Below are positions 54 through 58,538 of a stretch of 64,000 nucleotides of DNA, in pieces. The notes below the pieces were generated by a model. That model was not told the DNA's origin and made no database searches. It saw only the letters and a list, made by a program, of their open reading frames with translations. A program made the position numbers and the translations under genes. The stretch spans positions 1 to 64,000 of IMG/VR virus record IMGVR_UViG_3300030329_006193. One strand, written 5' to 3'. This DNA comes from a virus. The first letter of the stretch is position 1, and every line of letters starts with the position of its first letter.

Positions 54-446
54 TCAAGATGTGTAATCTATAATCCGGGGGGGCTCGTCAAGCGCCGTAA
101 GTTCTCCGGTATCAAGATTGTAATTGGCGGTAATTTGGATGGACTCGGGCGGACCTTCCTCAAGCCACCGGGCCCTAAGTCCCGTGAACCCCAACTCTTC
201 CATAAATTCTGGCTTTAATTCAAAGAATCTTTCCGGGCTGCGGTAGCCATCTTCTTTGTGGCTAACATAGCTTGATGTGTCTATCTTGTCGAGAGGCACA
301 CCGGTCACATACGCCACCGGACGCGAGCGGTCGCCCCTGTGGTGACCTGCGGAGTATATTAGAAAGTCGTAGGTGCCACCAAGACCTTCCACTTCTTCCA
401 GTTCTTCTCTAATGATTTGCTTTAGTTTTGCTTTTGTTAGTTTCAT
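54..446 (-). CDS. Small tagged phage protein, 130 aa, unknown function
   Basis: The protein opens with MKLTKAKLKQIIREEL, the lysine-rich N-terminal module shared by six neighbouring genes between 54 and 2979. The rest is acidic and unrelated to most of them. However, its TYDF segment (about residue 25), a VP pair around residue 50 and a GF pair near residue 86 recur in the same order in the C-terminal half of the product of 1112..1873, so these two look like diverged paralogues. The ATG at 446 lies four bases beyond the stop of the preceding gene (451..1110). An AGGG-type ribosome binding site sits about 11 bases upstream. There is no signal peptide, membrane segment or catalytic motif. The function is unknown; the module suggests co-localisation with the other tagged proteins. 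Confidence 0.75.
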   Translation of the reverse strand: MKLTKAKLKQIIREELEEVEGLGGTYDFLIYSAGHHRGDRSRPVAYVTGVPLDKIDTSSYVSHKEDGYRSPERFFELKPEFMEELGFTGLRARWLEEGPPESIQITANYNLDTGELTALDEPPRIIDYTS

Positions 447-450
447 TTTA

Positions 451-1110
451 TTATGCCCTGGGTGCCTTGTCTTCGAGCGCCCTTAGGAGCGCCGATGCCG
501 GGTCGAGGCCGTCGGCGACGTACTTATCCACCAGCTTCACGCCATTTCCCAACTGGGAAACGAGGCCCGGATAGAGTCCCCGAAGCTCCTCTACCGCGTC
601 GGCGCCTGATGAGGCGAGTCCGGTCTTGAGGGGATATGCACCAGTGCGAGCATCAAATTTGTCCTTCCGGCGCCAATACCTTATTCCCGACTTGGTGTCG
701 ATTTCCTCGTCGTAGTACCTGGGATCGGGGTAATCATTTTCACTGGCGTCGAGCATCTGCTGTAATTGCTCTAGGCTCGGCTGACCACGATTCGGCTCAC
801 CGCCATAACTCCAAATTATTTTGGGCAAGTCAGCAGTATGTTCAACTTCCAGATTTGCCAGGTGCCTCGCCCTTTTCTTGAAGAACCTGTTCACATCATC
901 TGGACCAGCGATGTGGGGTTGGTCGGTGCCATAGAGGCGAGAGACTTTGTCAAAAAGTTCCAGAGCCTCGTCATCCGGATAAGGAGCCCCCTTAACAATG
1001 ATCTTTTCTTCTTCCCAGGCGCCCGGGTCCTGGGGACGAAGTCTTTTACTTCGCGCTTCGTTAAGCTCTTCCTTGATAATCTGTCGTAGCTTTGCTTTTG
1101 AAATCTTCAT
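451..1110 (-). CDS. Small tagged phage protein, 219 aa, unknown function
   Basis: The product begins MKISKAKLRQIIKEEL followed by NEA. This is the clearest copy of the shared N-terminal module: a basic stretch, then an amphipathic helix with hydrophobic residues at L8, I11, I12 and L16. The remaining 200 residues are hydrophilic and rich in Asp, Glu, Arg and Pro. I recognise no fold in them. A strong AAAGGAG ribosome binding site sits 7 bases before the ATG at 1110, so the start is secure. The sequence LNE followed by Ala at residues 16-19 would fit the L-x-E/A type of site cut by T4-like prohead proteases. That is pattern matching only. The first 52 coding and leader bases are nearly identical to those at 1577-1628. 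Confidence 0.75.
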   Translation of the reverse strand: MKISKAKLRQIIKEELNEARSKRLRPQDPGAWEEEKIIVKGAPYPDDEALELFDKVSRLYGTDQPHIAGPDDVNRFFKKRARHLANLEVEHTADLPKIIWSYGGEPNRGQPSLEQLQQMLDASENDYPDPRYYDEEIDTKSGIRYWRRKDKFDARTGAYPLKTGLASSGADAVEELRGLYPGLVSQLGNGVKLVDKYVADGLDPASALLRALEDKAPRA

Positions 1111-1114
1111 TTTA
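1063..1114 (-). repeat. 52-base repeat, copy A, encoding the N-terminal module
   Basis: These 52 bases match 1577-1628 at 51 positions; the single difference is T versus G in the stretch coding for the fifth residue. The repeat covers the last bases before the ATG and codons 1 to about 16 of the gene 451..1110. The similarity drops away sharply on both sides, although the genes downstream differ completely. Confidence 0.85.
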
Positions 1115-1873
1115 TTCTCCTTTGCCGCGGCCGGTATAGCGGTGGTTGATTGTCATGATCAATTTTTGCTTCTGATTTTCATATTGCCTATCGGCATTTT
1201 TACTTGGATAGTCAGCGTTCTGGTACATACGCCAGAGGTACTCCATCCCGTCCAGGGCAGTGAGAATATCATCATAACTCGCTCCGGTAGGGTGGTCTCC
1301 TGCGGCAAAGTCGTGTACCTCGGCGTCGCTGCCGGGTTCTCCCTCTAGGGGGCGCACGGCGTGCTCGTAACGATCGAAGCCATATCTCTTCAGGAGTGAA
1401 GATTTTGGTTGTCGCTCGTCCTTGTAGCCCGAGAACTCCGTCGCAGACTTCGGTACATTCACTAAATAGAAAAGTGTCTCCCCGAGTTCGCCGCGACTGT
1501 CTGTCACGAAAACCTGAAAGTCGTAGGTTTCGTCGGAATCCGCATCTCTCGGGTCCCACTCCTCGTTAAGATTTCCAAGCTCTTCCTTGATAATCTGTCG
1601 TAGCTTTGCTTTGGAAATCTTCATTTTACTATTCTTTTTTTTAGACTCCTGTAAAGAGTTCATTATATCTATCAGCTCTTCAGAACTATAAACATCCCCC
1701 AAAGTCAGAGCTTCATACTCCGGATCACCTACGTCACCGACCACATCTCTCAGGGTAATGGCTTCAATGTCCACACTTCCCAAGTCGTCTCCCGTCACCC
1801 GAGCCGCTTGCAGTTCTGATGCAAGGTGGTCGCGGACATAGTGTTCGATCTCCTCTTTGTCGACGGGTTCCAT
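1112..1873 (-). CDS. Two-part tagged protein with an internal copy of the N-terminal module, 253 aa
   Basis: Residues 1-83 form an acidic segment starting MEPVDKEE. Residues 84-99 are a complete copy of the module (MKISKAKLRQIIKEEL), followed by a body resembling the product of 54..446 (TYDF, VP and GF in order). In every other tagged gene the module is at the extreme N-terminus. Here it is internal, directly after an eight-A run (1635-1642 on the plus strand as T). The frame start at 1873 has a good AGGAT ribosome binding site. The internal ATG at 1624 has AGGAG only about 21 bases upstream. Both other reading frames reach a stop right at the internal ATG, as expected if these were once, or still are, two genes (1873 to about 1622, and 1624 to 1112). 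The fused form may be real, may arise by slippage, or may be a one-base sequence error. Confidence 0.6.
   Translation of the reverse strand: MEPVDKEEIEHYVRDHLASELQAARVTGDDLGSVDIEAITLRDVVGDVGDPEYEALTLGDVYSSEELIDIMNSLQESKKKNSKMKISKAKLRQIIKEELGNLNEEWDPRDADSDETYDFQVFVTDSRGELGETLFYLVNVPKSATEFSGYKDERQPKSSLLKRYGFDRYEHAVRPLEGEPGSDAEVHDFAAGDHPTGASYDDILTALDGMEYLWRMYQNADYPSKNADRQYENQKQKLIMTINHRYTGRGKGE
1577..1628 (-). repeat. 52-base repeat, copy B, encoding the internal module
   Basis: This is the second copy of the repeat at 1063-1114, with one mismatch. It spans the leader and first codons of the putative internal gene starting at 1624. Flanking sequence is dissimilar, which suggests recombination or gene conversion of just this 5' segment, or strong selection on it. 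Confidence 0.85.
1635..1642 (-). other. A8 homopolymer at an ORF junction, possible slippage site
   Basis: Eight consecutive A residues on the minus strand (T on the plus strand) lie about 11 bases before the internal ATG at 1624. In the frame as given the upstream segment reads through into the module. One alternative frame stops at TAG just before the ATG. The other stops at a TGA that overlaps the ATG. Runs of this length are known to provoke transcriptional slippage and are also a common source of sequencing indels. Confidence 0.5.
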
Positions 1874-1877
1874 TTTT

Positions 1878-2366
1878 TTATCCTAATCCTAGGCGCTGAG
1901 CTACCTGATAAGATGAGACTGCACCCTGCGCAGCTTTCTGAACCTGCTGGGGGCTAACCCTCTTCTGACGGAGTGCATCAGCAACCCGATTGCGAAGTCC
2001 ATGCATCTCTGCGTGCTTACCCAAAAGCTGGGTAGCCTGCTGATACGCCCTATCGCCTTGTCCCCAACCTTCTTGCATCGGAGCATACATCGGGTTGGCG
2101 AGGATGTGCTGAAGCGTGGCAAACATCGGAGCATCCAAACTCATGCTAAGGTCTTTTAACTCATCGCGAGTCATGTTGCCCAGAGCCTCTCTAGCCTTTA
2201 TAAGAATGAGAAGTCGCTCTTCAGGGGATCCGAATGCTCGGTCAATAACCTCCTCTTCCTCGGACGCAGCAATATCTTCGATACCAGCGCCTGGTCGCTC
2301 AGCGCCGCGCATGGCATCCAGCTCTTCCTTAATAATATCTTTTAGTCTTTGTTTGGTGATTTTCAT
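1878..2366 (-). CDS. Small tagged phage protein, 162 aa, helical body
   Basis: I start this gene at the ATG at 2366 rather than 12 bases earlier, because GGAG lies 7 bases before it and it puts the module first (MKITKQRLKDIIKEEL). The stop of the preceding gene overlaps this start as TAATG, which suggests translational coupling. The body (residues 17-162) is rich in Ala, Gln, Leu and Met, looks almost wholly helical, and ends in a Gln- and Ala-rich stretch. I see no catalytic residues or membrane segment. It could be a scaffold-like or DNA-binding protein; nothing visible decides. Confidence 0.75.
   Translation of the reverse strand: MKITKQRLKDIIKEELDAMRGAERPGAGIEDIAASEEEEVIDRAFGSPEERLLILIKAREALGNMTRDELKDLSMSLDAPMFATLQHILANPMYAPMQEGWGQGDRAYQQATQLLGKHAEMHGLRNRVADALRQKRVSPQQVQKAAQGAVSSYQVAQRLGLG
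2321..2366 (-). repeat. 46-base repeat encoding the N-terminal module, copy C
   Basis: This 5' coding segment matches 2686-2731 at about 41 of 46 positions. The two flanking genes encode MKITKQRLKDIIKEEL and MKITKQRLKEIIKEEL respectively and then diverge completely. Confidence 0.75.
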
Positions 2367-2731
2367 TACTTTCTCCATCTCCCTGTTCTCGCTCCATAGG
2401 CTAGCCTATCGATTTCTTTCTGTGAAGGGTCGCCTTTCAGACGTAAGGTTGCCGCGGGCTCGACTTCGGCAAGACCGTCGCCATCGGCTTTGAGGGCGCT
2501 TTGGCGATTCATCGCTTTGTCAATGCTACTATACTCGTGCGCGCCATCTCGGGGGCCAAACTTAGGGCGACCGCCGGAGTCGAGGCCGTGAAGGTAAGCC
2601 TCTTCGGCACCCTTTCCGGACATCCTCAATACAAACGGCCCATCTTCATCATCCATCATCAGAGCTTCGCGCTCATACTTGGTAAGTTCTTCCTTGATGA
2701 TCTCTTTTAGTCTTTGTTTGGTGATTTTCAC
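2366..2731 (-). CDS. Small tagged phage protein, 121 aa, GTG start
   Basis: The start is a GTG at 2731 with TAGGAG 8 bases upstream, overlapping the TGA of the preceding gene. The module (MKITKQRLKEIIKEEL) is followed by an acidic patch, then a Gly- and Arg-rich body with a short basic tail (RTGRWRK). The segment from about residue 45 to 80, with Gly, Lys, Tyr and Arg-Asp-Gly pattern, looks like a small globular fold, but I do not recognise it. Function unknown. Confidence 0.75.
   Translation of the reverse strand: MKITKQRLKEIIKEELTKYEREALMMDDEDGPFVLRMSGKGAEEAYLHGLDSGGRPKFGPRDGAHEYSSIDKAMNRQSALKADGDGLAEVEPAATLRLKGDPSQKEIDRLAYGARTGRWRK
2686..2731 (-). repeat. 46-base repeat encoding the N-terminal module, copy D
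   Basis: This is the partner of 2321-2366, with about five mismatches. One of them changes the start codon from ATG to GTG. Confidence 0.75.
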
Positions 2732-2979
2732 TTTAGTTCTCCTACCTTGCGCATTGCGGCGGCCACATACCCTTCGGGGTTTTTGATCTTGGGCTTATTT
2801 GTTTTGACCCACGCAACCTTCGCGTCGAAGGTGGGCTGAGACATCATGTCCTCTAATAGCCCCTTCTCAATGTCTTCTAGCAACTCGTCGCCCATCTGAC
2901 GTATCTCGTGAACCATCTTGTACCTCTTGTAGGTCTCTTCGTGGATGATCTGTTTTAAGCGGGCGCTTGAGATTTTCAT
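2728..2979 (-). CDS. Small tagged phage protein, 83 aa
   Basis: The open frame extends to 3057, but the ATG at 2979 has TAGGAG five bases upstream and places a variant module (MKISSARLKQIIHEET) at the N-terminus, so that is the start. This is the first of the six tagged genes in transcription order and its module is the most divergent. The body is helical and charged, ending with GYVAAAMRKVGELK. It lies nine bases after the primase gene. Function unknown. Confidence 0.75.
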   Translation of the reverse strand: MKISSARLKQIIHEETYKRYKMVHEIRQMGDELLEDIEKGLLEDMMSQPTFDAKVAWVKTNKPKIKNPEGYVAAAMRKVGELK

Positions 2980-2987
2980 ATCAACTC

Positions 2988-3923
2988 CTATAACGACATC
3001 GTGAGTGTCAACAATAAATAGTTGTCCGGTGTTATAAGGGTCGCCTTTTCCAGGCATTTTCGGAAATGATCCTTTTTCATTGAGCCAACATCCTCGTTGT
3101 CTCCGATATCAACCTTCCAAACCTCAATATCAAAATCGAGCAACGTCTTTATAATCTCAAGCTCTTTCTTCTTCGCGTCAGGATCCAGAGCAACATAAAC
3201 TCCGGCATCCTCTTTTACGATCCTACGGAGCAAAACAGAGTTCTGATTTAGTGTAGATCCCAGAATGGGTACTGCGTTTCTGCCCGCGGTGATGGCATCG
3301 AAAACACCCTCCACCAGAATAATATCGGAACTCCAATCCACAAACAAATCATTGAAGACAATGTTCTTGCTCACTGGTGGGTTCTTGTACTTGGGATAGA
3401 ACTTCTTGTCGTAAGAGCGAGACACAAAATAGGTCAGATCGCCCTCTTCGTCAAATGACGGAATGATGATGCGCCCCTCATACTCGCCACTGGCGCAGTA
3501 TCCCATCTTCCACCACATGATATCTTTCTTGTCGATACCACGCTTGCGCAGATAGTTACGGGCCGCGAAACCGGTGGGGGGAACGTCTTTGCTGGCCAGA
3601 GAAACAAACCCCTCCGGCATCTCAACTACTTGTTTTTCTTCGACTTTCTCTTCGAAAAGATCTTCGAGCTTGTCGTATTCAACAGCGTCAGTAAACTCTC
3701 GCCACTGTCCTTTATCATGATTCGTACCGAATCTTCTAATAACACGGTAAATGTTCTTGCCACGCGTATCGCAGACCCAACACTTGTAGTAACCTTTGTC
3801 GATGTTAACAGAAAACTTGCGCTTGTGATGGTTGCAATAAGGGCAAGAAAATAAATATTCATTGTTGGATCTGTAAGCAGGTCCGAGAACATTAGTGAGA
3901 ATCTTGAGTTTCTTGGTTTTCAC
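2988..3923 (-). CDS. DnaG-type DNA primase (zinc ribbon plus TOPRIM)
   Basis: This enzyme would make RNA primers at the phage replication fork, the role of T4 gp61 or bacterial DnaG. A zinc ribbon is visible as C27-P-Y-C30 and C48-W-V-C51. A TOPRIM domain follows around residues 198-280, with the metal-binding glutamate in VEG (E205), the acidic DPD at 247-249 and further acids at 273-278. The length of 311 residues is short for DnaG but normal for phage primases of this type; no helicase domain is attached. The start is a GTG, and the gene overlaps the end of the RuvC gene by 32 bases, so a slightly shorter N-terminus is possible. No replicative helicase is in this window. Confidence 0.88.
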   Translation of the reverse strand: MKTKKLKILTNVLGPAYRSNNEYLFSCPYCNHHKRKFSVNIDKGYYKCWVCDTRGKNIYRVIRRFGTNHDKGQWREFTDAVEYDKLEDLFEEKVEEKQVVEMPEGFVSLASKDVPPTGFAARNYLRKRGIDKKDIMWWKMGYCASGEYEGRIIIPSFDEEGDLTYFVSRSYDKKFYPKYKNPPVSKNIVFNDLFVDWSSDIILVEGVFDAITAGRNAVPILGSTLNQNSVLLRRIVKEDAGVYVALDPDAKKKELEIIKTLLDFDIEVWKVDIGDNEDVGSMKKDHFRKCLEKATLITPDNYLLLTLTMSL

Positions 3924-4425
3924 AGATAAGCCCAGCCTTTGCTACAACGTAACTGTCGGCTCGGTCAGCATAACCGGGGCGAGGATTACCTTGTCTAGTG
4001 TATTCTACATCAAAGTCGGGCACGTTGTCAATGATAAAATCCATGACAACCTTCTTTGCCTTCTGGCCGCGGGGGACCTTAATAGAGCAAAGCTTTCGCG
4101 CTTCCTGGGCCTTCAAGTACTTGGGCTCAAGGTCAAATAAATTATAGCATATCCACGACACAACGCCATTAAATTTTTGCAGCGCGGCCATCGTCGCGGC
4201 GGAAGAGCCGCCGGACTTGAAAAATAAAAACGGCTGCTCGATGTATACCGCGTGAATGGTGGCGTAGCTCGTGATGCGTGCGAGGGCATCCTCCACAAGT
4301 GCCACCTTCTTAAAGAAGTTCTTCTCTTTGCGCATATCCACATGGCCGCACTCTACAATTTTGCCTGTTTCATCTAGCAGAGTATAGCCTGTAATACTAG
4401 TGGAGACATCTATTCCTAAAATCAT
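3892..4425 (-). CDS. RuvC-like Holliday junction resolvase
   Basis: The product has an RNase H-fold resolvase layout: D6 in the first strand (MILGIDVSTS), E63 in VYIEQP, and the pair D154/D157 in GYADRADSYVVA. These match the four acidic residues of RuvC. At 177 residues it is the usual size. It would cut branched replication and recombination intermediates before packaging, a job done in T4 by the unrelated endonuclease VII. The ATG at 4425 has GAGG upstream. It is followed directly by the primase and preceded by a membrane protein gene with a four-base overlap. Confidence 0.85.
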   Translation of the reverse strand: MILGIDVSTSITGYTLLDETGKIVECGHVDMRKEKNFFKKVALVEDALARITSYATIHAVYIEQPFLFFKSGGSSAATMAALQKFNGVVSWICYNLFDLEPKYLKAQEARKLCSIKVPRGQKAKKVVMDFIIDNVPDFDVEYTRQGNPRPGYADRADSYVVAKAGLICENQETQDSH

Positions 4426-4646
4426 TTATTCCTCTTTACTCCAAAGTCTATCTTATACCACACCCGCTCGTGAGCATAGTACAATATCATCTTTGTGACG
4501 ACCTCTAGAGAGCCAATGGTGAGCCCCACCGTCGGATCTCCGGATACAAGCCACCCAAGTGCAATCGTATCTAGGGTTCCTACGGTGCGCCACGTAAAGG
4601 TTTTCAACAGATGGCGCGAACGATTAATCGACGGTTTTGAGGTCAT
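4422..4646 (-). CDS. Small DUF2061-type membrane protein, 74 aa
   Basis: The pattern K-x-FTWRTVGTLDT, then a hydrophobic segment, then SLEVVTKMILYYAHERVWYK is the signature of DUF2061 proteins. These are small two-helix inner-membrane proteins of unknown function found in bacteria and some phages. The two hydrophobic stretches lie at about residues 25-45 and 48-60. AGGAG sits 7 bases before the ATG. Its place between replication genes does not explain its role. Confidence 0.75.
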   Translation of the reverse strand: MTSKPSINRSRHLLKTFTWRTVGTLDTIALGWLVSGDPTVGLTIGSLEVVTKMILYYAHERVWYKIDFGVKRNK

Positions 4647-4872
4647 CTAAATCTCCTAGTCCTTCCAGGGCATAAATCGGCTTAATATCGGATTCTTCTA
4701 TTTTTATGCGAAACGAAACAGTCACTTTTTTCATCTCCCACTCTCCCGGGGCAATCGGTATTCGTTTATAAAAAACCACAGTATTCCCGGAGCGCTCGAT
4801 CCACAAAAAACTATTAATAGCGTCACGGATAGAGCGATATAACTCTCCAAGAATTTCATCCCGGAACGACAT
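4624..4872 (-). CDS. Hypothetical protein, 82 aa
   Basis: This short acidic protein has a likely helix at residues 1-25 and then alternating hydrophobic strands (VVFYKRIPIAP and KKVTVSFRIKIEE). It overlaps the DUF2061 gene start by 23 bases, and its own start abuts the stop of the TTG-initiated gene upstream. The ribosome binding site is weak (GATCTAA), so translation may be coupled. No family is recognised. Confidence 0.6.
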   Translation of the reverse strand: MSFRDEILGELYRSIRDAINSFLWIERSGNTVVFYKRIPIAPGEWEMKKVTVSFRIKIEESDIKPIYALEGLGDLDDLKTVD

Positions 4873-5052
4873 TTAGATCTTTTCGTTCATCGCCCACTTG
4901 GCAGAGTGTGCAAAAACATAATCATAATGTTCAGTGTCCTCTAAAACATTGTGAGCCCTCTGAAGAGCAATTTGCAACGTGTCCACCAAGGCTCGGAGGT
5001 CGGAGGCTTTTTTCTCCAGATCTCTAATCCGTCGTCGTGTTTCTTTATCCAA
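4873..5052 (-). CDS. Short coiled-coil protein with TTG start, 59 aa
   Basis: I read a 59-codon frame in the 200 bases between two neighbouring genes. It starts with TTG at 5052, six bases after a GAGAGG ribosome binding site, and ends at the TAA at 4873-4875, directly against the next ATG. The product (starting LDKETRRRIRDLEKKASD) has regular leucine spacing through about residue 40, consistent with a coiled coil, followed by an aromatic and histidine-containing tail. No other frame fills this space, and an uncoded gap of 200 bases would be unusual here. Function unknown. Confidence 0.6.
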   Translation of the reverse strand: MDKETRRRIRDLEKKASDLRALVDTLQIALQRAHNVLEDTEHYDYVFAHSAKWAMNEKI

Positions 5053-5073
5053 TTGGGGCCTCTCTTCTCTAAG

Positions 5074-6330
5074 TTAGATATCGGTCTTAATTTTGACTGT
5101 AAAGCCTCTTTCGACCGTCTTTTTGACTGGCATTGCCAACTTAGCAATTCCAATAAGATTCTTTTCATCATCGTATATTCCCACCCGCGAAACATAGGTA
5201 GTTTTTTGAAATGAACCTGTGGGGTCATTATACGATGAGGATACAATATTTTTAATATGAATATTGGAATTTTCAAGGTAGGTCTTACTAGTGGCTGAAG
5301 CAAAGCTCCCCGTAGAGTACTCGCGGTAGGTGGGGTTGTTGGACTGATTAAGATCCCCCTTTGGTGCCTTTGCAAACATAGTAAGAGTTTGAGTTTCTTG
5401 AGTCCCGCTCATTTCCATGATAAAAGCAGACTGGGGTGCCCAGACCGACCCCGAGATGGACTGAGCATAGTAGATCCACTTAGGGTTGTCGGCTACCAGA
5501 AGATCACTAGTATTGCGATAGTACTTGTCTGTCTGCGCGACCGGACCTAGGCGATAGGAGGCTGTAAGAATTAGAATCCCTTCCCCATAGAGGGCAAAAC
5601 CCACCGCACTACCACTGCGGACCCCCGTAGTAGTATAAAGCACCCCATTACGCTTGGTGTCTTGGGCGCGTGCGAGGAGGGAACCTGTATAGTAGAATTT
5701 AAGATCAATAGTGCCAGGCTTGATGTTCGATCCATAGAAAATAGTAGGAACACTCACCAAACCCACCTCCACATCATCAAGGTCGCGACCACTAGTGGAA
5801 GAGGAGTAAACTATAAGAGGGTTGACATAAGTGTAGCTATTGATAGTATTCTTGAGCGCGCGCAAATGGGATACAAACCCGTTAGTGAGGGTAGGGTTAG
5901 CATTAAAGCGCGGCGTAGTACTTAAATACAGCTCCTTACTGATAGAAGAAGTGAGGGGGTAAGTGCCCTGGATGACATCTCCATAGTTGAGAGCATTGAA
6001 CGAGCCCTGGGTCGTTGAACGGAACCCAATGCTGGTACCGTTCTTTACCACCCAGGGATATATCAGTCCGTTGTCGATAGTAGTGGTGCCTGCAGGGCCG
6101 GCGGGGCCAATAAGCCTAGTGGACGACCCAAAATACTGCCTATCAACATTTAGTTCATAGAGAGAGATGTTTCCGGCATTGGTGCGCAAGATAGGGTCGC
6201 TATGGGCCCCAGAAAGATTTGGCCTGTTATTATAATAGGCTGAGCCACTATAAATTAAAAATTTAACACTCGGATACGTCTTTAACGTATTGTGGTAAAC
6301 GTCATTGGTGCTAAACTTGTAATAAGGCAT
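5074..6330 (-). CDS. Probable virion structural protein, 418 aa, paralogue of 6349..7452
   Basis: The protein is rich in Ser, Thr, Gly and Tyr with many short SGS/TGS turns, typical of beta-rich tail appendage proteins. Its last 40 residues (TTYVSRVGIYDDEKN... then AKLAMPVKK) match the C-terminus of the next protein (TYVTTVGLYSGDNE... then AKLSEPLKK). Upstream both have an NPTY motif and a pair of hydrophobic strands. They are therefore diverged paralogues. No clear ribosome binding site precedes the ATG at 6330. It is the last of the structural block in transcription order. Confidence 0.7.
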   Translation of the reverse strand: MPYYKFSTNDVYHNTLKTYPSVKFLIYSGSAYYNNRPNLSGAHSDPILRTNAGNISLYELNVDRQYFGSSTRLIGPAGPAGTTTIDNGLIYPWVVKNGTSIGFRSTTQGSFNALNYGDVIQGTYPLTSSISKELYLSTTPRFNANPTLTNGFVSHLRALKNTINSYTYVNPLIVYSSSTSGRDLDDVEVGLVSVPTIFYGSNIKPGTIDLKFYYTGSLLARAQDTKRNGVLYTTTGVRSGSAVGFALYGEGILILTASYRLGPVAQTDKYYRNTSDLLVADNPKWIYYAQSISGSVWAPQSAFIMEMSGTQETQTLTMFAKAPKGDLNQSNNPTYREYSTGSFASATSKTYLENSNIHIKNIVSSSYNDPTGSFQKTTYVSRVGIYDDEKNLIGIAKLAMPVKKTVERGFTVKIKTDI

Positions 6331-8452: not shown

Positions 8453-11179
8453 TTATTCGCTTCCTTTTACAATACCGGAATTCTTAAAGTTTAGATTCAA
8501 ATCTATTTTCCTTCCTGTTTTTTTGCTTACTAAGCGAACCTTGAAATCCTTATTCCAAATACTGTCTGCAATATTGGCCTCCCCTAAATGCACTGTAGGG
8601 GTGTCGTTCGTTGTGACAGGAAGCGGCTGCGCATCACTCTGATATTCAACTTGCCGCGCTGCCGGCTCTATCAGTATATACTTCCTTCCCGAAATTGTTA
8701 ACGGTTGTTTTACAGTTTCAAAAACATAGGGCTTCTGTCGCAAGTAAATTTGGCCGGCGTTATCTACCATCTCCACCTCAATAATGGGGCTAGGATTGGA
8801 AATGTTGTCATGCACATCCACGGAGCGCACACAATAATAATACGTCACATTTGGTTCTATAGTGTCCATAAAATCTGCGGGCGTTCCGTACGTTGGATCT
8901 AAATCCGGGGAAATTCGCTCCGCATCAACAAAACTCTCATAACCGGTTGGCGGTGTTGATGTGCGGAACACCTGATATCTATCCACTGGGTCATCACTCC
9001 TAAAGTGAATGGTTTTCTTCTGCTCTCGAATCTGTTCATATGTGAGTGTGGCCCCCTGCTGAGAGGCATACTCCATCTCAAAGAAGGCTGGATCCGTATC
9101 CTGAATTGCGATAGGAGGCATATGATAGTCCCCGGTGCTGGAATTCAAGAGGAGGCGCACTCGATTGGCTACGCCTTGATGAGCATAAAACGAAACCTCG
9201 GGGGGTACGGGAGGAGAATCTACAATTAGGCTTTCGAGACCTTGATCTTCGGGGTCTGGGCCCGCTGTATAAGGCAATAATATCACCTTTAGGTTACCCA
9301 TATTTTGGACCTCTACGGGAACAGCGGCGGGTTCGCTGAGGTCCAAAACGACACTTGTGTCGTAGCTGTAAGCATTTCCAAAAATGGCAACCATCTTTTG
9401 GATCTTATAGCGATACTTCTTTTCATATTTTACCTGAGAATCGTAAAACGTAATAGCACGACCTAAGGTATCAGTTCGGAAGCGATTAGTGAGATAGAAC
9501 TTCTGTACTAAGGCGCCATCTGATCCATTCTCATTGACTTCGTGCTTGCTCACTACATACATCAGGGTCTCCGTGTGGCACCACTGTCCTTGAAGAATTT
9601 CTATATAGGTTCTCATGAAAGCGGGGTAGTCATTTAAAATTTGAGCGTAGGCTGCTTGAGCGGTTCCAGGAGGGATCTCAAGGCGCGCGGAGGGGTCTGA
9701 GGAAAAACCGTTTCCAGCAGAGTCAAGGCAGCGCGCATAATCTCGGATGAACCGATAGGGAGGGCCTCCCGCGGGGAGGACCGTCGGGTCGACGTACTCA
9801 TTAATAATATCTTGGGCTTTAGCGATTGCAGTCTGAGCTTGCAGGTTCGGATGTATCGCATTAACATAGTTATTAAGTTCCAACATCATATTTACCAAAT
9901 AAGAATAAGAATTTTGGGCAGTTTCGTACTGAATATCCGAGGCGTCGGTGGCACTTAAAACATTTTTGGTAGTTACCCTATACTCTCCCGAAGAGTCACC
10001 CGGAGCGCGATATCCCTCTAGGGTATTAATGCACATTACCTGAAGAATATCTATAAATGCCGCGGTGTCGGGCTTATCAGCCATCCAAGTGAACAAAGAT
10101 TGTCCACTATTGAGCCCCGTCCGCGCTTGCGGATCCTGAGGGATTTGGATTTCATTTACGAACGGAACCAGGGTGTCGGAAATATATTCTCCCAATAGGG
10201 CCTTCTCATCGCTACTAAGCACCACAAATGTTGAATTATTTTGGGCAGCAGTCGCCAGTTGGCCCGCAGGGATAGAGGAGATACCCGTGAAGGTCTGGGC
10301 ATATACCTCATAAGCAGTCTTAGTGGTTTCTTCGGTAACGGCTGTGCCGTCCTGTAACATATAGGCTGCGGCTCCGCCCACATTCAGAGTGTCGACATGC
10401 CACATCGTGAGTGGAGTTGCGCTTTCATTATGCATCTCCGATTGCATAATATAAATATTAGGAAGATAGGTTTCGGACACCTCTGACGGGGCAATTGCAC
10501 TCTCATAGGGTCCTACATAATAATTGTATTTAGGGAGCACCCCAAGAGACGTTCCAATGGCTTCTCTCTTGTCTTTTTTGCCTGAGATGGAGTAAACACA
10601 GCATGCATAATCCTCATGGGGAGAAACCAGAGAGTCATCATTGAGGAGGCTCTTATAGTCTTGCGTCACAACAGTGAAAGAATCAGGGTTTGCTATATAG
10701 TTATAAAAGTTCTGCCGGCTGGACTGTAGGGTCGCCAGGGGCGGTCGCAACGTGTTCCCCTCCCAGGATCCGATCCAATTCATGGCTCCCGGAACCATGT
10801 TGTTATAGTAATTCCAGGCGCTACTCTTAGGAACAACCTGTAGGGTGGGGTTTATCTGTGCGGACCGAGAGCTATTTTCTATCTGTTCCATATTGGAGAT
10901 TTGAATAACGAGGTTTTCAGTCTGGAATTCCAGCCGGCCTAGAGATGGAGACTCGTGGTCCGTCGCGTTCCCCGGATTAGGATAGGGCCACAGTGTGTAT
11001 CCTCTAGAAGATTTATAGACGGTTTGATATCTCCCTAAGACTGCGCGCAGGCGATCGCTCATATTCCAGTTTTGGCGCAGCATGGGATGGAAGCCATTAG
11101 GATTATTGAGCCTCTCAGTGGGACCTACGAGTGCCTCGTTAACAATCTTATATAAGGTTTTGAAACTACTATCTGTCAT
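8453..11179 (-). CDS. Large virion protein with a fibronectin III-like domain, 908 aa
   Basis: The first 650 residues are a mixed, aromatic- and asparagine-rich sequence that I do not recognise. Around residues 680-840 there is a fibronectin III-like segment: KTIHFRSDDPVDRYQVFRT, then VTYYYCVRSVDVHDNISNPSPI, with the usual tyrosine and Ser-Pro turn. The last 60 residues are beta-rich. Such domains are common in tail and baseplate periphery proteins that touch carbohydrate. The neighbours are all large structural genes. A baseplate or fibre-attachment role is inferred from context. Confidence 0.7.
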   Translation of the reverse strand: MTDSSFKTLYKIVNEALVGPTERLNNPNGFHPMLRQNWNMSDRLRAVLGRYQTVYKSSRGYTLWPYPNPGNATDHESPSLGRLEFQTENLVIQISNMEQIENSSRSAQINPTLQVVPKSSAWNYYNNMVPGAMNWIGSWEGNTLRPPLATLQSSRQNFYNYIANPDSFTVVTQDYKSLLNDDSLVSPHEDYACCVYSISGKKDKREAIGTSLGVLPKYNYYVGPYESAIAPSEVSETYLPNIYIMQSEMHNESATPLTMWHVDTLNVGGAAAYMLQDGTAVTEETTKTAYEVYAQTFTGISSIPAGQLATAAQNNSTFVVLSSDEKALLGEYISDTLVPFVNEIQIPQDPQARTGLNSGQSLFTWMADKPDTAAFIDILQVMCINTLEGYRAPGDSSGEYRVTTKNVLSATDASDIQYETAQNSYSYLVNMMLELNNYVNAIHPNLQAQTAIAKAQDIINEYVDPTVLPAGGPPYRFIRDYARCLDSAGNGFSSDPSARLEIPPGTAQAAYAQILNDYPAFMRTYIEILQGQWCHTETLMYVVSKHEVNENGSDGALVQKFYLTNRFRTDTLGRAITFYDSQVKYEKKYRYKIQKMVAIFGNAYSYDTSVVLDLSEPAAVPVEVQNMGNLKVILLPYTAGPDPEDQGLESLIVDSPPVPPEVSFYAHQGVANRVRLLLNSSTGDYHMPPIAIQDTDPAFFEMEYASQQGATLTYEQIREQKKTIHFRSDDPVDRYQVFRTSTPPTGYESFVDAERISPDLDPTYGTPADFMDTIEPNVTYYYCVRSVDVHDNISNPSPIIEVEMVDNAGQIYLRQKPYVFETVKQPLTISGRKYILIEPAARQVEYQSDAQPLPVTTNDTPTVHLGEANIADSIWNKDFKVRLVSKKTGRKIDLNLNFKNSGIVKGSE

Positions 11180-14005: not shown

Positions 14006-14988
14006 CAGCAGGGCTCCTCGTTATCGGATTCATAGATATCTCGGACAAGGCCGGGGCGGTCGGCGGTGTCGACCGGCACATTCCATTCAGCATAAGTAGA
14101 CTGAGCGATGTCGTCATCCATAAGAATGTTTATATAATATTCTACATTCCCCGGCAGATTTAAATCATTTTCGATTGGTCTTTCTGGAGCAAACATAGAA
14201 CTTCCTGTAGGAGTGAATGCAAGTTGAGTATAATTGCCGTCTGAACCAGACGCGTAGACTTCGATATCGAAATTGTCTTTATCAAAGGGGGTGTTCTGTT
14301 CAGTTATCTCCAACAATAAATAGTTGTTTTCTACAGTTAGATAAAGGTCCCCTCCGGGAATAGTAAAAATGGTCTCACGAGGATTCTCAAAGTTAACACT
14401 ATCCACATCACTATAGAACATTTGATAATCTATGTTGATGTTGAGTTGGGGAATATTTTCTACACCCCCCTCGGAGCCCGTAGCATAAAAACGGACAGGA
14501 CCATCTGCGCCCGGAGCGACCGTATAGCCCGTATTAAGATAAGTAGTACTTGAAGCTATCTCAGGGGTGGAATGCAGTTGAACATCCCACGCGGCGTCGT
14601 GTCGGGAATCTAAGGAGGAGCGCCCAATAGCATGAGCATTTAAGCGGCCCTTTTCAGCAAAAGGCTCCACCTGACTAAAAACCTGCAAGTCATCCGCCAC
14701 ATCAGTGTTGGGTCCTACCAGATCGGTAATCTCCTGAACAAATGAAGCGACGCGTTGTTCGGCGCCCGTGCGAGTAGGAATCACTTTAAGATTGGGGGTG
14801 TTAGACTGTATGCGGGGCTCGGCCTCGTTCTGATTCTCGGTAAAGCCCGCACAGTTGGTATCATAGACTACATCGTCATCAAAAAACGCATAGTAGACAG
14901 GCTTAAGGCGCCCGAGGGACAGAAGATATTTGCCGTACTCTGTAAGTTGAAAGTCTAAAACTTCTTCTTTCTTATTAAAGAATTCCAT
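14005..14988 (-). CDS. Probable tail appendage or adaptor protein, 327 aa
   Basis: The N-terminus MEFFNKKEEVLDFQLTEYG followed by KYLLSLG, and then a DDD patch, parallels the start of the product of 7468..8415 (LD-x2-LT-x2-G-x3-L-x2-G, then DDE). The remainder is acidic and beta-rich, with few lysines. It sits between the 3951- and 940-residue proteins and is coupled to both by overlapping stop and start codons. It could be an adaptor that docks onto the giant protein; that is inferred from position only. Confidence 0.7.
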   Translation of the reverse strand: MEFFNKKEEVLDFQLTEYGKYLLSLGRLKPVYYAFFDDDVVYDTNCAGFTENQNEAEPRIQSNTPNLKVIPTRTGAEQRVASFVQEITDLVGPNTDVADDLQVFSQVEPFAEKGRLNAHAIGRSSLDSRHDAAWDVQLHSTPEIASSTTYLNTGYTVAPGADGPVRFYATGSEGGVENIPQLNINIDYQMFYSDVDSVNFENPRETIFTIPGGDLYLTVENNYLLLEITEQNTPFDKDNFDIEVYASGSDGNYTQLAFTPTGSSMFAPERPIENDLNLPGNVEYYINILMDDDIAQSTYAEWNVPVDTADRPGLVRDIYESDNEEPC

Positions 14989-17900
14989 TAGGATTCATCT
15001 CCTCTCGTTCTCCTCGGATCGCGGCGGAGACGACGGAGGAAGTCTTCGGGCCGCGGGAGGTCGGGGCCGCGTCTCCTTGGCACCTCCTCCACTCTCGGAG
15101 TTTGCGCGCGCATTTGGCGATTAGGTTCCGGTGGCGCTTGGCGGTTACTAGCGTTCGGAATTGAGGCAATCTCCATTCTTCCGGCCGTAGGCGGCCGGCC
15201 GTCGAGGTCTCCGGCATCGTTGTCCGAGATTTCGTATTGCATGTCCTTCGATGTCCATTGAGCTGTCGCCTCGATGTTGGCCAACTCGACCAAAGAGAAG
15301 TAGTCGTAAGGCCAATTGTAAGTGTAGTCCGGAATTGTCTCCGGGAACGCGTCGGTATTGTCAGTAACTAAGGAGCGCCGATACTTTTCATAATCCTTCT
15401 TGGCTCGCTTCTTCACCTTGAAAACCATCCACTCGATTTTATCCGTAGTAGAGGCCATCAGATTCAAAAGTTCGCGGTCCTCGACAATAACTTCCTGTTC
15501 TGTCATGCGCGACTCAATATCCGGCGGCAAGTTCTGCCACATATCGGCGATATCTTGTTGAGTGATATCCACCGAGAACTCAAAGACATATGTCAAAACA
15601 GGATTGACTGTATTATGACGCAAGAAATCAAACTTGGGCGGGAAGATATATTTATCCATAGCGGCCGTTAAGTTTCGGAACATCGCTGTATTGCGCATTC
15701 TCTTGTTGACTTTAAAGAATTTACGTTTATTTTTACTAACCTTATAAGGAATAGCAATAACTGCTTCTTCGAGTTTCGCCTCTTTTTTCAAAGAACCGAC
15801 GCGGCGGGGAGAGCTGGTGCCAAACCCAACAATGTCTGCCAACGAGAAGGAGCCAACAGTAGACGTAGTAGACGGAGGAGGTCCATCTCGCAGCTGAGCA
15901 AACACTCCCGTAGATCCCGTGGGGATGACTCCGTACTGTTGCCACATCCCCTTGTGAATAAGCTCATTAGGTGCCGTTGTTCTGGTCCTCCCGGCAATAG
16001 GTCCCGAGGGCACATAAGGCACGGAAGAACTTACACTCACCGAGTAAGTAGCGTTGGCAAAATTAAGAATCGGGGTCTCAAACTTAGACTGAATAAGCCA
16101 CCTTTTCTTTTGTGCGGTGGTTTGATCAGGCACCTCCGATAAAATCTGAGTTAAGTTAAACTGACTATCTATTTGCTGGCGGGGGTCCGTTCCTTCAGCC
16201 CAGGTTTGGGAAAAGGGTGTATATTCATCGCGTTCGTAGGTTATGATAGTTTGGGCTAAAATTTCATCTAAGGTTGGAACCCCAGTATACCTCGCTGTAA
16301 AGCTAAAGGTGGCGGCTCCTACTCCCGCATAATAAGCGGGGGTAAGATGGGCAAACGCCCCCTTATAATTAACATCCTCGGTTGAAGCTATGGGGAATCC
16401 AAAAGCCGAGATCCGGTTGAACATCTCAAATTTGGTGCGATCTGGTTTAAGTTCGGTGGCGCTCGATCCACTCCGCATAGTTCGATAGAGGTCCAGTTTC
16501 ATTGTGTAAGTCGACCCACTCACCACCGGCATAAACTCTTCTTCTCGGGCGGACTGGAAGGATGTCAGAGAGTCCATGAAAAAGTTGGTGGTTTCGCATA
16601 AGAAATTATCGGCGGCTAATTCATACAACCTAGTGGCACTTGCAAGGCCTTGGCCGAACTGAACAACGGCCGGCCTACAATAGGCACAACCGCCGAGGAC
16701 GCTACCACCAGCATAAATCTTCTGATATGAAGCATAGGTGGTAGCGGTGTCGTACAGCACCTTACGATCGTTGGACTCGCCGGACTTGCCGGTTCTAACT
16801 GTCAAATTAAGAATATAATCATCATTATAATATTGAGCCGGCTTATAAATAGCCTCAAAAGGCAATTGCTTTATCACATAACCGCGGCGTGGCTCAGAGC
16901 CAGTAAGGGTAAGCATATTCTGAAACGCCAACCCGGAGGGGGCGGCCGGGTCGGGAGTGGGGCCTGACCGGCCTCCGGTGCCGAAAGCCGAAGGGACGTC
17001 AACGTTAGCCATATATCGCGGGGAGGCTGGGCTAACGGAGCCTGTGTTTATCAAAATAGGATAGCTGACCGCAATGCCGGATTTCACTGTATTGAACAAG
17101 ATTCCCGGAGCGAACAAGGGCTCGAACGCAATACGACACATTCCCACGCGAGGCGCCGTAGATGGAGGGAAGTGCTGAGGATATAGAAGAAAAGGCTCCA
17201 CCGAAGCAGAGAACTTATTGGCCAAATACAGACCCCGTTCGGCCGGATAGAAACCCTTGTAGGGTAAAAATTTCAAAAGTGCGGAAGCCTTCAGTTTTAT
17301 GCGGTCGCGAGAAATTTTCAAGTCCCCCGAGCGTTCATCATTAAGATCCCCATCGATAGCCCCGAAATATTTCATGAAATCACTATTGCTATAGGTACGG
17401 AAAAACTTAGGATGTGAACTATTAGCAAGCACAGTACCCGAAATCTCATATAAGCCCGGGACATCGGCCAAGAAATCACTCTCTTTCTTTCCAATAAACG
17501 TCTCTAGGTGTTCGGAAATTCTAAACTCTGGAATGATACTACTGTTCTGCGCGGCCAGTCGAATCTGTTCGGACCAGCTAGAATAGTTTTCATAGGGATG
17601 CTTGCCGGCGGCGGCAGGGGCATCCCATTTTGAATCTCCCCCGAAAATGGGATAAAATTGAGTATTATCGTTATAACCCTGCCAAATTCGATATACATAG
17701 GCCGGTCCACCAGCAATATCAAAGCCCGCGGGGGTGGATCCTGCATATCCAAAACGAGTAAATGCCGTTTGTAATTCGCCGGATCCATCCCACCATATTT
17801 GAGAGGCCGTAGTCTCAAAATTAAGATGACCATCAAGGGGCCATACACTAGCCGTGGTATAGGTTCCCGGGTTTTTATACATCATCGACGCAACCTGGAG

Positions 17901-20900
17901 GCCCTTCCTATATCCCATATTCCTATAGCCACCGGTTAAAAACTCACTTCTCTTCTGGCGATTGTCATTCCAAATATTGTCGATATTATACTTTGCGCGT
18001 CCACGAATCTGTTCACTATACATGTTCCGGGCAGCGGGATACATGCTTTCAGTATAGGTCACCACCGTGCTGAGGTCACTGTCCACCAAGTAGTTGCGTA
18101 CTGTGTCGAAGGCCATCGGCTTGTCCAGGTCAATCTGGAGACCTAGGCGGTTATTTAACGCATCATTGTTAAAGTACTCAAGATCATTACCGTAAGTCGT
18201 CCGCAATGTAACATTATTGTCCGGATTGGAATCCGTGGTGTTGTCTTCAAAATAAAACTGCACGGCCCCATACTTGCTATTAACGGGTGGCTCGTAATAA
18301 TCCACAAAACTATTGGCCTGAAGCGCTGGTACACTTCCCACTTGCACATTGTTGATAATATTCGGAACGGGAGAAGGGGGCACGATCTGACCGATCAAGT
18401 TCTTGGACCGTAGCTTTCGAGCCACGGGTGATTCGCCGGCTCGGATTTGCTTCCACGTAGGCCAACCATAGGGGCCCTGCCGATGTAGTATCATAGAGTT
18501 AAAGGAGTAGTTCATCGATGCAGGGGGCACCGAAGAGGTGGCCCTAATGACTCCTGTTCCGTTGGTCTCCAAATGACCGTCGAACTGGCCGCCCTTGTAA
18601 AGCGTATGGTTGACCGCCGCATTATGAATATTGCCGCCGCTACCCAGACTATCGCCCGGGGCATCACCCATCCGATACCATGCCACCAACTTGTCACTTG
18701 GGAAAGTAGAATCATTAGATTTGAGACGATAGGGCTCTGCCGGTGCTCCATAGTTATACAAAGCATGTACATTGCGAGCTGTCAATTCGGTATCGTAGAT
18801 CTGAAACTCATTCATATTTCCAACCCAGTTTCGATCGCCAAGGCCGCGTTCGCCAATATAAGAATCTCCACTAATAGAAGCTGGATTATCCAGCTCCTGT
18901 GTTACCGAGCTAGTGCCGATACCATTTATATAAAGCCTCATGAAGTTTCGTGTACTACTGCCGTCAGGATCTCCTCCCTTAAACGTCACCACCACATGAT
19001 ACCATTTACCGTAGGAAAGCGGGGGGCCCGTGATTTGGCCGTCTGTGGTCAGACCGTTGATTACAAACGTATGCTTAAAGCGATTACCCCCATAATCAGT
19101 TTGCAGCAAGGCCCGATCACCGCTTCCCATATCAAACACGCGAGGGGAATAGGTTCCCGGTGAGCCCGTAGGGGCCATTATCCAGGTCGCCACACTGAAA
19201 GCCTTAGCGCTGGCGCCGCTACCGCCCACTATAGGATTCCACTCAGCGGTGGGCCCTATATCCACCCGAGCATAGTTCGAGGTGTCGCTTCCCAGGGTAC
19301 CACTCATATACAGGGACTCTGAGTCAAAGGCACCTAGCGAGCGCTCAAGGGTGTGTGTCGCTAAGTTGACCGGAGATGCAACGGCCGGCCCAATAAGATT
19401 GGCGCCTACGAATGCAGGCTTTACAGGCCCCGTGCGGGGGTTCAAGGGGAACGGCGCTAACCCAGAGGGATAACCCTTAGTTCCGACGGTATAGTCCGCC
19501 TCTATGGCTAACGGCCACGTTGAGGCAGTCACACTAGCCGGAGCATTCAGTCCCAGAATTCTTCGATTCTGTGCCGGGAGGAGCCCTCGCTGCAGCGACG
19601 CTGTCACCCACGCATACTGTTGTTCTGAACGCGGGATCTGATGCTGCACAAAGAGGTTGTCATAAACTGATGCTGTGTAGTACTGTCCCTTAGTAGCTGA
19701 ACTGAACATGAAGCGCTTGCGGTTGCTGTTTGTCTTGTGCCAAGAAGGCAGCGCTGGGTAAGATGAAGACGGTTGGACTCCTGGGCCGAAAGCAGCGTCT
19801 GCGCCGAACTTACCACAGCGAAGTGAGGCGCGTTGGTCGAGGCCTCGGTTCTTTCCGATCTGATCCACAACTGTGATTGTTTGTGCAGCGATTGGGTCGG
19901 CCGGGACGTTACCCGAGAGGCCATGATCAATAATAGCTAAGTTATGATAAGGCGCAGCGTTATAGACCGACATCTCGGTGTGAGCCGGGTCCATATAACC
20001 CAAAGACATGACTTCATAACCAGAGCCGGCATAACGGTTAACGATCACTGTCTCTTGAGAGTCCGAGCCGGTTCGCTGGGGAACTAAAAAGTTAAGGTTG
20101 CCTCCACAGTTGGCGGTTTGGCCAGTTGTGGTTTTACTCCATGTACCGCCCCCATAAGCGGCAAGCTCTGAAGCCGAGAAGGCGTTACGTGTATAGTTCG
20201 TCTCGGCGGATGCCGAGATCGCCAGGGTGTCCCACCCTCCCTGGAAGTCTTGAGAAGCAGGGCCCTTGTCATACACACGACCCACATCTGGGTTAGGTCC
20301 AAATTTCCACCAGTTCTTTATGTTCAAAGAATAATTAAAGCCCGCATGAGGAGTAGAGGAGGTAAGGTCTGTCCACCCTCGATTTTTTCCTCCTGACGGG
20401 GTTCCACTCGAAGCGCCAAGCGTACATGGGGCGGTGGCTGGATCTTGATAAGACGAAGTCGTCTTGGCTGTCATGAAGTTGTTAACCCACGCGGAACTGG
20501 TCGCATGAGCGGCACCAACCGGCGCGTGGGGAGACGGAGTATAGACGTCGCGCCAAACAGCAATCTGTCCTATGCCTACGCCGGCGGCTCCGTGAGGGGC
20601 TCCGAAGAGGTTTGTGGCGATCACTCCTCCATAAATGGGAGCGAATGCCGTCATTGCAGCCTTCTCACCGCCGATAGCCTGATTGGAGCCTGTGCGGGCC
20701 GTTCCGTGGTTACTGCCGCTCAGGAAAGCTGAACTAGTGGCCGCGGAGATACCGTTCACATAGATGGTGGAGCCCTTCCGGCCGGTTCCTGATCTATAGA
20801 CCAAGTAGCGCTGATGGGTTCCATGTCCATTCAAATTCCCGGTCGATGCCGACATGAACGCCGGGCCCTGTTCGCGAGTCATGTCCGCGAGTTCAAAATT

Positions 20901-23900
20901 GGAGCAAGACAGGGCCAATTCATTCTTCGCAAGAGCGCGGCAGCGGGCTTTATTATAAAGCAGGCCGGCGGCCCAGGGTGGTGCCGACTGCAGATCGTTA
21001 GTAGTGGTGTTGGTTCCGTCCGTCCCGAAAGTCATAGGCCAGAAGGAGATGAGATTACCGGCGGATGGGGCGCCGATGAACGTGGCAGTGGAGGTGGGCA
21101 CCAATGCATTGAGATCGGAACGGAGGGGGCCCTCGTAAGCGCCTCCGCGCCAGCCCGATACGCCGCGAATCTCCGCATGGGTCAATACCCGGTCCCAAAT
21201 AGCAAAATCACATAGAGCACCAGTAAGATACGTACCGCCTGCAGGCGCCTGACCTATTCTACATGGTCCGTCAATTGTATAGGCGTTCTTCCCGCCTCCT
21301 GCGCCGCCGGCGGCGAACTTGCTCACAAATACCCCATTGCGATACATCTTAACCTGAGAACCGGCGCCGCCCGAAACCGCATAAGTTACGGTATAGTGGT
21401 GCCACCCCGTGCCCGTGCGAGCTTCGGGCTGGGAGCCAGCGGGGGGGCTACCGGTCATGTTAGAGCTGTAATAGGTGATATATCGGCTATCATCAACGTA
21501 CCCAATTCCATGCACGAGATTTCCTGAGGAATCCTCAAGACTAATAATCTGGGTGCCGCCTGTCGCGTTCTGGATGTCTTGAGGTGGTCGGTACCAAAAA
21601 CTGATACTCCAGTCTTGTGGGCTAGCGCCGAACTCGCTGCTCATCTTTGTTTGCCACGTAGCGGCGGTAGTGGCGCCATTAATCATGTTAAGATAAGAGT
21701 TATTACTGCTGTTAAAGGATAAACTCTCTCGGTTCGCTTTGGAGTAACTCCCTAAGAAGTCTTCCCTCTTCCAGTTAAGCTGGTCGGCGCTGAACACCAC
21801 ATGGTACCAGCCTGGGCTCGTGAAAATATCGTCTTCCGATATCCAATAGTAGGCATTAATCGTAGTCCCTCGCATGAAAGAAATGCCCAGGCGAGGACCC
21901 TTGGAGCCATCCGACGGGGAGGCGTTGGAGCCGGACTTCAGGAAGACACGCCGAGTGATATCCTGATTGTAACACCCACCCCACGCAAAGAGTGTGCGCT
22001 CCTCGCCATTATATTGTGCGGGGAAGCCTAGGCCTCCGTAGCCAGTAGCTTGCCAAGGAGGGCCGGCTTGCTGCACAGTGTTCTTGGACGCAGAGAACCA
22101 CACAGAGATGGTCTGCTGAGGATGACTCCCCAGGTCGTCGTCGGCGCTATTGGAGCCGGAGGTGATGTAGGCCACACCATCGACGCCCGGTTTGCCCTTG
22201 AGGAAAGTATAGTCAGTCTGCACTCGGGTGGTGGTGTCGGTAGAGGTTTCAACCACCAGCGGGAAGCGACCACGAGTAGCGAGAGTTTCTGGATAGGGAG
22301 CAAAGTTAAACGACTGATCCTTGAAGAAGGGATCATTCTTCATGCGCGAGTTCGAATTTACAACCTGATAGTTCTTTTCATAGTTACCGAGAATAGTGGA
22401 GCCAGTTTTCATCTGGATATTCTTGATGTTGACAGGGCGCTTGGCGGTGACATCGCGGAAACGATAGGCAGTGGGGAGCGCTGTATCGATTACGCCATGA
22501 GGAGCGTTCGGCGGCAAGACAACCAGCGACTTCTTATTAACTCCCTCAACATTTTCGCTGCCGCGATTGTCAAAATCAATCCGGAACCCTTCTCCCCGGG
22601 TAGTATTAGAATCAGTGCCCTTTTGATTAATCCGTGTGTGGCGATAAAAACGACCACCTACGTACTCTTGCGTAAAAGGACCCTGCATAGGAATATCGGT
22701 GCCCACCACAAAATCATTATGTAGGTTAGTAATCATAACACCCGACACATAGTTAGCGACCACTTGAGCGTTGTATCCATCAGTTACAGAGGAACTATAA
22801 AGACTAAAAGGCGCATGGCGCGGGCCGGATACAGCATCCTGATTTGCGTCATCACTGCCAGACAGCGCAAACCCTAAGCGCTGTTTAAAGGTGGGGTAGA
22901 ATTCTTCGCTAGTCTCGATAAGCGTCTCGACAGTACTGCCGGAGGAAACCAAGATTTTCTGAGCCTGATTGGTGCTCCCTGCCACTTTGCCACCCCAGGC
23001 GCGAGCAGCTTCGAAAACATAATTAACCACCGCATTATGATGCTTGGCTACCCCGCCAACAGCGGTAGTGCCCTCTACGCCGAACTTAACCGGGGATTTG
23101 GATCTGCGCTCAAAGGTGCTTTCTACGGCATCAAAAATAGCTTGGCGCGAGGATTCAGTTCTTTTAGCCAGATAACGCTCCCAATAAAGCTGAGTATTGT
23201 TGTCGCTGGTGGTTCGGGGATACGCCACGGGCGCTCGGAACTTGGCCCATGGGCGCCCATCAGGAGGATTAGAAGATCCAATTTGTCTCTTTGTGAAAGC
23301 GGTATTGGTAAAGAAAGCGGAGCCCTGAGGAAACTCTTCCGGGGAGCCCTGGGCTGTCTCGGCAATCGTCATCTCTCCTGCAATGGAGCCAGAGATGTCG
23401 GACTGCCCAACATTGTCGAGGAAGGGGAACTTACGCTGGTACTTCGGTCGCTCTAAGATGTGGCTTTCAATAACAGTACGCACCTCTTCAGCCACGTCGG
23501 CTGAGGCTGGTACCAACTGTTGGAGCATCGCCGACAAAGATGTATCAAACCATTTATAAAATTCATAGAACTTATCAAAATCTAATTCTTCAACCTCATC
23601 CTTCTCAAAGAACTTCTGTCGCATGAACGCCAAGTCTTTATACTCGGGGCGCCACTTGTTCACCGGGTTGCCAATTAAGTTGTTAAAGTCGCGTAAATTG
23701 GCAAAATAATTAATCATCTCTTCGGAGATTACCTGATACATACTCTTCTCGAAAGCAAAGAAGTAATTAACCGGGCGAGCTGTCGCACCGAAGATTTCTT
23801 GATCCATAGCTCCGAGCACTTGCACCATATCCGCCGAATAGATATTCTCCGGCAGATTCAGCTTAGAAGAAATAACGAAATCTTTATCGATAGCGCTGGT

Positions 23901-44367: not shown

Positions 44368-44378
44368 ATTTTCCTCAC

Positions 44379-45877: not shown

Positions 45878-45878
45878 T

Positions 45879-48118: not shown

Positions 48119-48121
48119 GAC

Positions 48122-50959: not shown

Positions 50960-50963
50960 TTTT

Positions 50964-51626: not shown

Positions 51627-51630
51627 CTTC

Positions 51631-54981: not shown

Positions 54982-54984
54982 AAC

Positions 54985-57244: not shown

Positions 57245-57252
57245 ACATCCTG

Positions 57253-58536: not shown

Positions 58537-58538
58537 TT

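Follow-up and report, generated by a model that had tools for sequence, protein, structure and literature searches.

The internal proteins of T-even phages have been described as a highly diverse set of defence proteins of which the leader alone is conserved (PMC3012670). Ip1-3 inhibit distinct type IV restriction enzymes and have the leader as their sole common part, and at least ten such proteins have been reported from related phages (PMC12373910). In T4 IPIII the leader is ten residues long, positions 4 and 7 serving targeting and positions 8 and 10 processing (PMC9026906). The SPN3US proteins gp53 and gp54 are identical in an N-terminal 15-mer, are otherwise diverged and carry an A-x-E protease motif (PMC5694885). 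Here, six consecutive minus-strand genes at 54-2979 were found to open with a common 16-residue N-terminal leader, MK(I/L)(S/T)(K/S)xxLxxIIxEE, below called the tag. They lie in the window, a stretch of 64,000 bases (1-64,000) of the 76,431-base IMG/VR virus record IMGVR_UViG_3300030329_006193, itself a fragment; coordinates are window positions unless another contig or locus is named, and gene letters refer to Table 1. With a probability of roughly 80%, the tag is read here as a capsid-targeting leader of T4 type, carried by internal (ejected) proteins that are exchangeable. By its gene content (baseplate wedge and hub, late-sigma-like protein, PhoH, RuvC and primase), the source contig is assigned to a distant T4-type myovirus.

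Spacing of the constrained leader residues

The six products for which the initial annotation had claimed one shared N-terminal tag were all recovered by pattern. A degenerate 47-base tag pattern matched five of the six tags with 0-2 mismatches, a slightly shorter one matched all six, and the reversed control gave none. Between genes B (start 1110) and C (start 1624) the tag DNA differed at 1 of 47 bases.

The positions of highest information in the tag were I12, E14, L8 and I11, which have the spacing of positions 8, 10, 4 and 7 in T4 IPIII. Both T4 IPII and IPIII carry YQEFIAE at residues 4-10, and the same pattern is found at the T4 sites of gp23 (FGSFLTE, 59-65) and gp68 (VEALIPE); IPI does not fit. 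The remark in the initial annotation that T4 uses a different sequence was correct letter by letter, but the functional residues are spaced identically and a leader with the aromatic pattern of T4 is present on the same contig. Because selecting tags by pattern biases the counts, a set of 145 tags was chosen by residues 1-5 alone, with the rows able to match the collection search removed. The pattern phi8-xx-phi11-[LIV]12-x-E14 fitted 128 of these 145, compared with 0.6 expected from shuffles and 0-7 in other registers, and it fitted all six tags of the window. Position 12 was I in 133 of the 145 and A in a single one, so that the phiKZ-type A/S-x-E cleavage motif does not describe them. A second [LI]-x-E near residue 22 was present in 36% of tags, compared with 2-5% in later segments. 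Conservation dropped sharply beyond residue 16, as counted on pattern-selected tags and thus subject to selection bias.

Like T-even IPI-III, the tagged proteins combine a short common leader on mostly unrelated bodies with the same spacing of putative docking and processing residues and a variable gene block; an S77 protease is encoded on many of the tagged contigs. They differ in the leader itself, here the aliphatic and basic MKITKxxLKQIIKEEL as against MKTYQEFIAE in T4, in their acidic bodies without homology to T4 internal proteins, and in number, with up to 26-30 tagged genes per contig where T4 has three and its relatives at least ten reported. They resemble the phiKZ-type proteins gp53 and gp54 of SPN3US, and other giant-phage ejection proteins, where paralogues have an identical N-terminal 15-mer, diverged bodies and propeptide protease motifs ending in E; in that system, however, the protease is S80-type and the motif A-x-E, whereas here the motif is I-x-E and the protease of the relatives belongs to the T4 S77 family.

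Sites of similar layout, [LIV]-x-E within the first 40 residues, were also seen in three other genes of the window, at 8453-11179 (LYKIVNE↓A, the arrow marking an actual or potential cut here and below), 39696-40004 (LDDYITE↓T) and 41230-41418 (VRQMLRE↓A). Such sites occur in 8 of 67 other open reading frames (ORFs) and may therefore be due to chance.

Exchange of bodies and of leaders

In L215, the nearest relative found (primase 93% identical), the corresponding block contains five tagged genes. One product is identical to that of 54-446 and one is 61% identical to that of gene D, while the similarity of the other three to the window extends little beyond the roughly 50-70 bases of the tag region. 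The more distant G013 (primase 81%) has five tagged genes at the same place, of which a single body, a homologue of gene D (37%), is recognisably related. In these comparisons the leader persists while the bodies are exchanged, and the block is interpreted as a cassette array.

The tag DNA of close relatives is 88-94% identical over 50-70 bases despite different bodies, as would be expected if selection acted chiefly on the DNA of the segment, some 60 homologous bases promoting gene exchange or translation start, and the peptide had no role. Across phages, on the other hand, all six leucine codons occur at L8, and third codon positions agree in 50% compared with 64% for amino acids. Codons vary while residues are kept, which argues that the peptide rather than the DNA is conserved and makes a purely DNA-level explanation highly improbable; any such role of the segment may be secondary.

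A second run of tagged genes is located at the other end of the record, beyond the window (contig 72921-76181, L006 12922-16182), and contains both the class 1 tag described above and a second leader class. The class 2 leader, MKLLLENWRKYLxE, has the T4 layout W/Y-xx-F/Y-[LI]-x-E on the same contig as class 1. It resembles class 1 in its gene slots and homologous bodies, and is unlike it in having aromatic docking residues and little positive charge. The two classes were found exchanged on homologous bodies in three comparisons: L074 2754-2978 with L188 6083-6313 (bodies 75% identical), L112 5023-5745 with L061 2114-2833 (E 3e-42), and L021 4676-5431 with L061 (E 2e-26). That two leaders swap on the same cargo, one of them with the T4 pattern, is most simply explained by a common destination. 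The class 2 body at contig 74140-74721 also has an untagged relative in another phage (L021 5428-5907, 43%).

The leader is basic (pI about 10) and was modelled as a helix at low confidence, features that would suit a general DNA-binding or self-association helix on functionally unrelated phage proteins. We consider this very unlikely. A plain DNA-binding helix in solved homologues had been named as the finding that would count against an address tag, and the PDB contained no DNA-binding homologue, the best match having E 4.4. Moreover, the leader that replaces it on homologous bodies is aromatic and carries little positive charge, and the constrained I-x-E would have no role in such a helix.

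Distribution of the tag and linkage to head genes

A tblastn search of phage isolates with the 20-residue tag gave nothing, low-complexity masking being the probable cause, and DNA patterns were for this reason used instead. In 30 large contigs, picked because the tag was present and mostly fragments, 166 matches were found; owing to this preselection, it is the contrast with the pattern read backwards, which gave 0, that counts rather than the bare number. The module is thus present in other phage genomes, where the initial annotation had recommended looking for it. At least 120 stretches with the tag were found in the viral contig scan, and a stricter pattern was present in 49 of the 120 viral stretches listed. 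Among 84,980 cellular species genomes, the stricter pattern occurred on one contig only, a phage-like one of 305 kb in a metagenome bin. This huge-phage-like contig, NHDW01000006.1 (305,838 bases; L226, L228), is binned as bacterial, with Methylococcaceae, and has T4-type protease, portal and capsid genes. All 26 tags of the bin by the looser pattern are on it, together with a gp21-type protease gene, and 15 successive genes are tagged (L226). Of six isolate or reference records close to the clade, just one, a 484-kb uncultured phage, was found to have tags. In the fetched loci, 302 occurrences of the motif lay in the N-terminal 30 residues and 33 outside them, where about fivefold more residues were available. 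The tag is shared beyond chance. The clade is without a close isolate: its capsid proteins find their best isolate matches in Rhodothermus phage RM378 (33%) and Microcystis phage Mel-JY01 (46%, along part of the length).

The S77 (gp21-type) prohead protease was found in 19 of the 30 large tagged contigs, including the colinear relative G013, and gp23 in 15; two of the tagged contigs without the protease end in or beside the portal gene. The head module runs from terminase and portal through several small genes to a variable slot, the protease and a second variable slot; a conserved protein of some 140 residues and an S21-like protein come next and, after further genes, the capsid protein. The variable slots flanking the protease are the places of T4 genes 67/68 and 22, and tagged genes of either class are often found there. 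In all 14 related capsid proteins the arm carries LL(R/K)E followed by A, S, Q, G or T, likely a maturation site, its context matching the T4 cut FLTE↓A. Similar LLxE sequences are present in the N-termini of the protease. When the tag profile was compared with the head regions, the conserved protein downstream of the protease gave a clear match in L193 only (E 2e-6) and weak ones in L187 and L191 (0.002-0.003), the best reversed control being 0.011; a shared origin of this protein and the tag is only suggested by these values. No match to its gene was found among isolates. The ribosomal protein S21-like gene between protease and capsid gene (L178 9912-10169) is at the same place in most head regions.

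We infer that during head assembly the leader, as an amphipathic helix, would dock the cargo on the prohead core through L8 and I11, and that the gp21-type protease would cut after I12-x-E14 and free the body inside the head. In many relatives an additional cut would follow the second [LI]-x-E near residue 22. The bodies would thus be packaged together with the DNA and reach the host by injection; there, by analogy with T4, they probably counter host defences or aid takeover. The address tag for head packaging put forward in the initial annotation is supported by four lines of comparative evidence: the residue pattern, the linkage to the gp21-type protease, the leader exchange on homologous bodies and the cassette turnover.

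Several observations weigh against capsid targeting. The class 1 leader is strongly basic, with aliphatic residues in place of the aromatic ones of T4, and the six bodies of the window, unlike the basic internal proteins of T4, are acidic to neutral (pI 4.7-6.8). The record to which the window belongs, a fragment, has no protease or capsid gene, and the large tag-rich contigs G002, G004 and G012 are without a known head gene. Tags within 2 kb of the protease are only modestly enriched (8 seen, about 3 expected), and since tags also cluster, the enrichment alone proves little. Given that leader cleavage is a prediction, that the block of the window adjoins primase and RuvC rather than the protease, and that three tag-rich contigs lack head genes, the leader might instead be an uncleaved docking helix for another phage structure (portal, tail, replication or transcription complex), with the proteins acting in the producing cell or the tail. 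This alternative is judged unlikely: the constraint on I12-x-E14 equals that on the docking residues, which is what a protease site should show, both leader classes fill the slots beside the protease, and the classes are exchangeable on homologous bodies, class 2 having the T4 pattern.

A full-text literature search retrieved no paper on the tag strings and none joining a capsid targeting sequence with metagenomes. The kind of system is known from the T-even internal proteins, and it is the leader family and the scale, in a clade without a close isolate, that look new. It is fairly probable that uncultured phages, T4-superfamily and huge ones, load their heads with hundreds of small, unrelated proteins by means of a leader family that is new to the searched literature and interchangeable with a T4-like one; cassette exchange would maintain open-ended arsenals of about 10-30 injected proteins per phage. 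If the capsid-targeting reading is true, hundreds of phage genes that lack annotation become candidates for injected proteins through a 16-residue signature readable from metagenomes; where domains can be recognised, they include kinase, phosphodiesterase, nuclease, acetyltransferase and cell-wall domains. T4-type heads would also have a second way of loading cargo, and what wild phages inject alongside their DNA would become testable.

Tagged bodies and neighbouring features

The bodies behind the six tags had initially been described as unrelated, which held for 13 of the 15 pairs. The bodies of 54-446 and 1112-1624 both begin with TYDF and are probably distant relatives (z 4.4), and the similarity of 451-1110 to 1112-1624 was borderline (z 3.3). 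None of the six window proteins matched a PHROG family, and in the viral contigs searched no relative of the 451-1110 protein or of the 1112-1873 product was found. Modelling of the 451-1110 protein by AlphaFold from the single sequence gave a poor model (pLDDT, the predicted local distance difference test, 46).

In the wider set, 300 tagged bodies fell into 224 clusters, 189 of them singletons. Recognisable domains were few and scattered: pentapeptide repeats, YkuD, AAA/polynucleotide kinase, 2H phosphodiesterase, exonuclease, GNAT (in a class 2 body), a zeta-toxin-like kinase and peptidoglycan binding. PADLOC gave a single match among 120 tagged proteins, a DEDDh exonuclease. In G012, 10.7 kb (L209 1633-12296) are filled by 16 tagged genes, interrupted once; the tags of some of these genes are looser variants. 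Directly upstream of the protease in L177, two adjacent tagged genes (4079-4591 and 4588-5307) encode 2H-phosphodiesterase-like and polynucleotide-kinase-like products, perhaps an RNA repair or cyclic-nucleotide countermeasure pair. Short C-terminal modules are also common to tagged proteins (L066, L025, L039, L103, L126 and others), for example KSKKAALKQLAAVEISK, KRYGxDAESVMYATATKIAK and AQKDKPASERADSLSAAEAEEMCTSKIEE, and add a second layer of modularity.

The tag of gene C had been taken as internal to the product of 1112-1873. It does lie inside that open frame, but probably begins a gene of its own: with one A fewer in the upstream run of eight, the upstream frame would stop at a TGA overlapping the ATG of the tag. 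A one-base length change in this run would split the upstream 83-codon frame from gene C.

Table 1. Positions of the tagged genes and associated features. Arrows mark predicted cuts.
Feature	Position	Strand	Remarks
Tagged gene A	54..446	-	130 amino acids (aa); leader 399-446 (codons 1-16); predicted cut IIRE↓EL, behind residue 14
Tagged gene B	451..1110	-	219 aa; leader 1063-1110; predicted cut IIKE↓EL; possible second site LNE↓A
Tagged gene C	1112..1624	-	170 aa from the tag's own ATG; leader 1577-1624; open frame reaches upstream to 1873
Run of eight A, upstream of gene C tag	1635..1642	-	sequence feature
Tagged gene D	1878..2366	-	162 aa; leader 2319-2366
Tagged gene E	2366..2731	-	121 aa; GTG start; leader 2684-2731
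Tagged gene F	2728..2979	-	83 aa; weakest leader of the six, MKISSARLKQIIHEET, 2932-2979
DNA primase	2988..3923	-	upstream neighbour of the tagged block; conserved in L215 and G013
RuvC-like resolvase	3892..4425	-	RuvC-primase order common to relatives bearing the head module
Class 1 tag or variant	contig 72921-73244, 73824-74117		beyond the window
Second leader class, MKLLLENWRKYLAE	contig 74140-74721, 74784-75548, probably 75549-76181		beyond the window

Elsewhere in the window, a long run of sugar genes at 41651-59789 (UDP-glucose dehydrogenase, epimerase-like proteins, glycosyltransferases and a sulfotransferase-like protein) is largely different in G013. A single ORF of 3951 residues occupies 14988-26843 in the tail/baseplate region, and its counterpart in G013 consists of two ORFs of 559 and 3498 residues.
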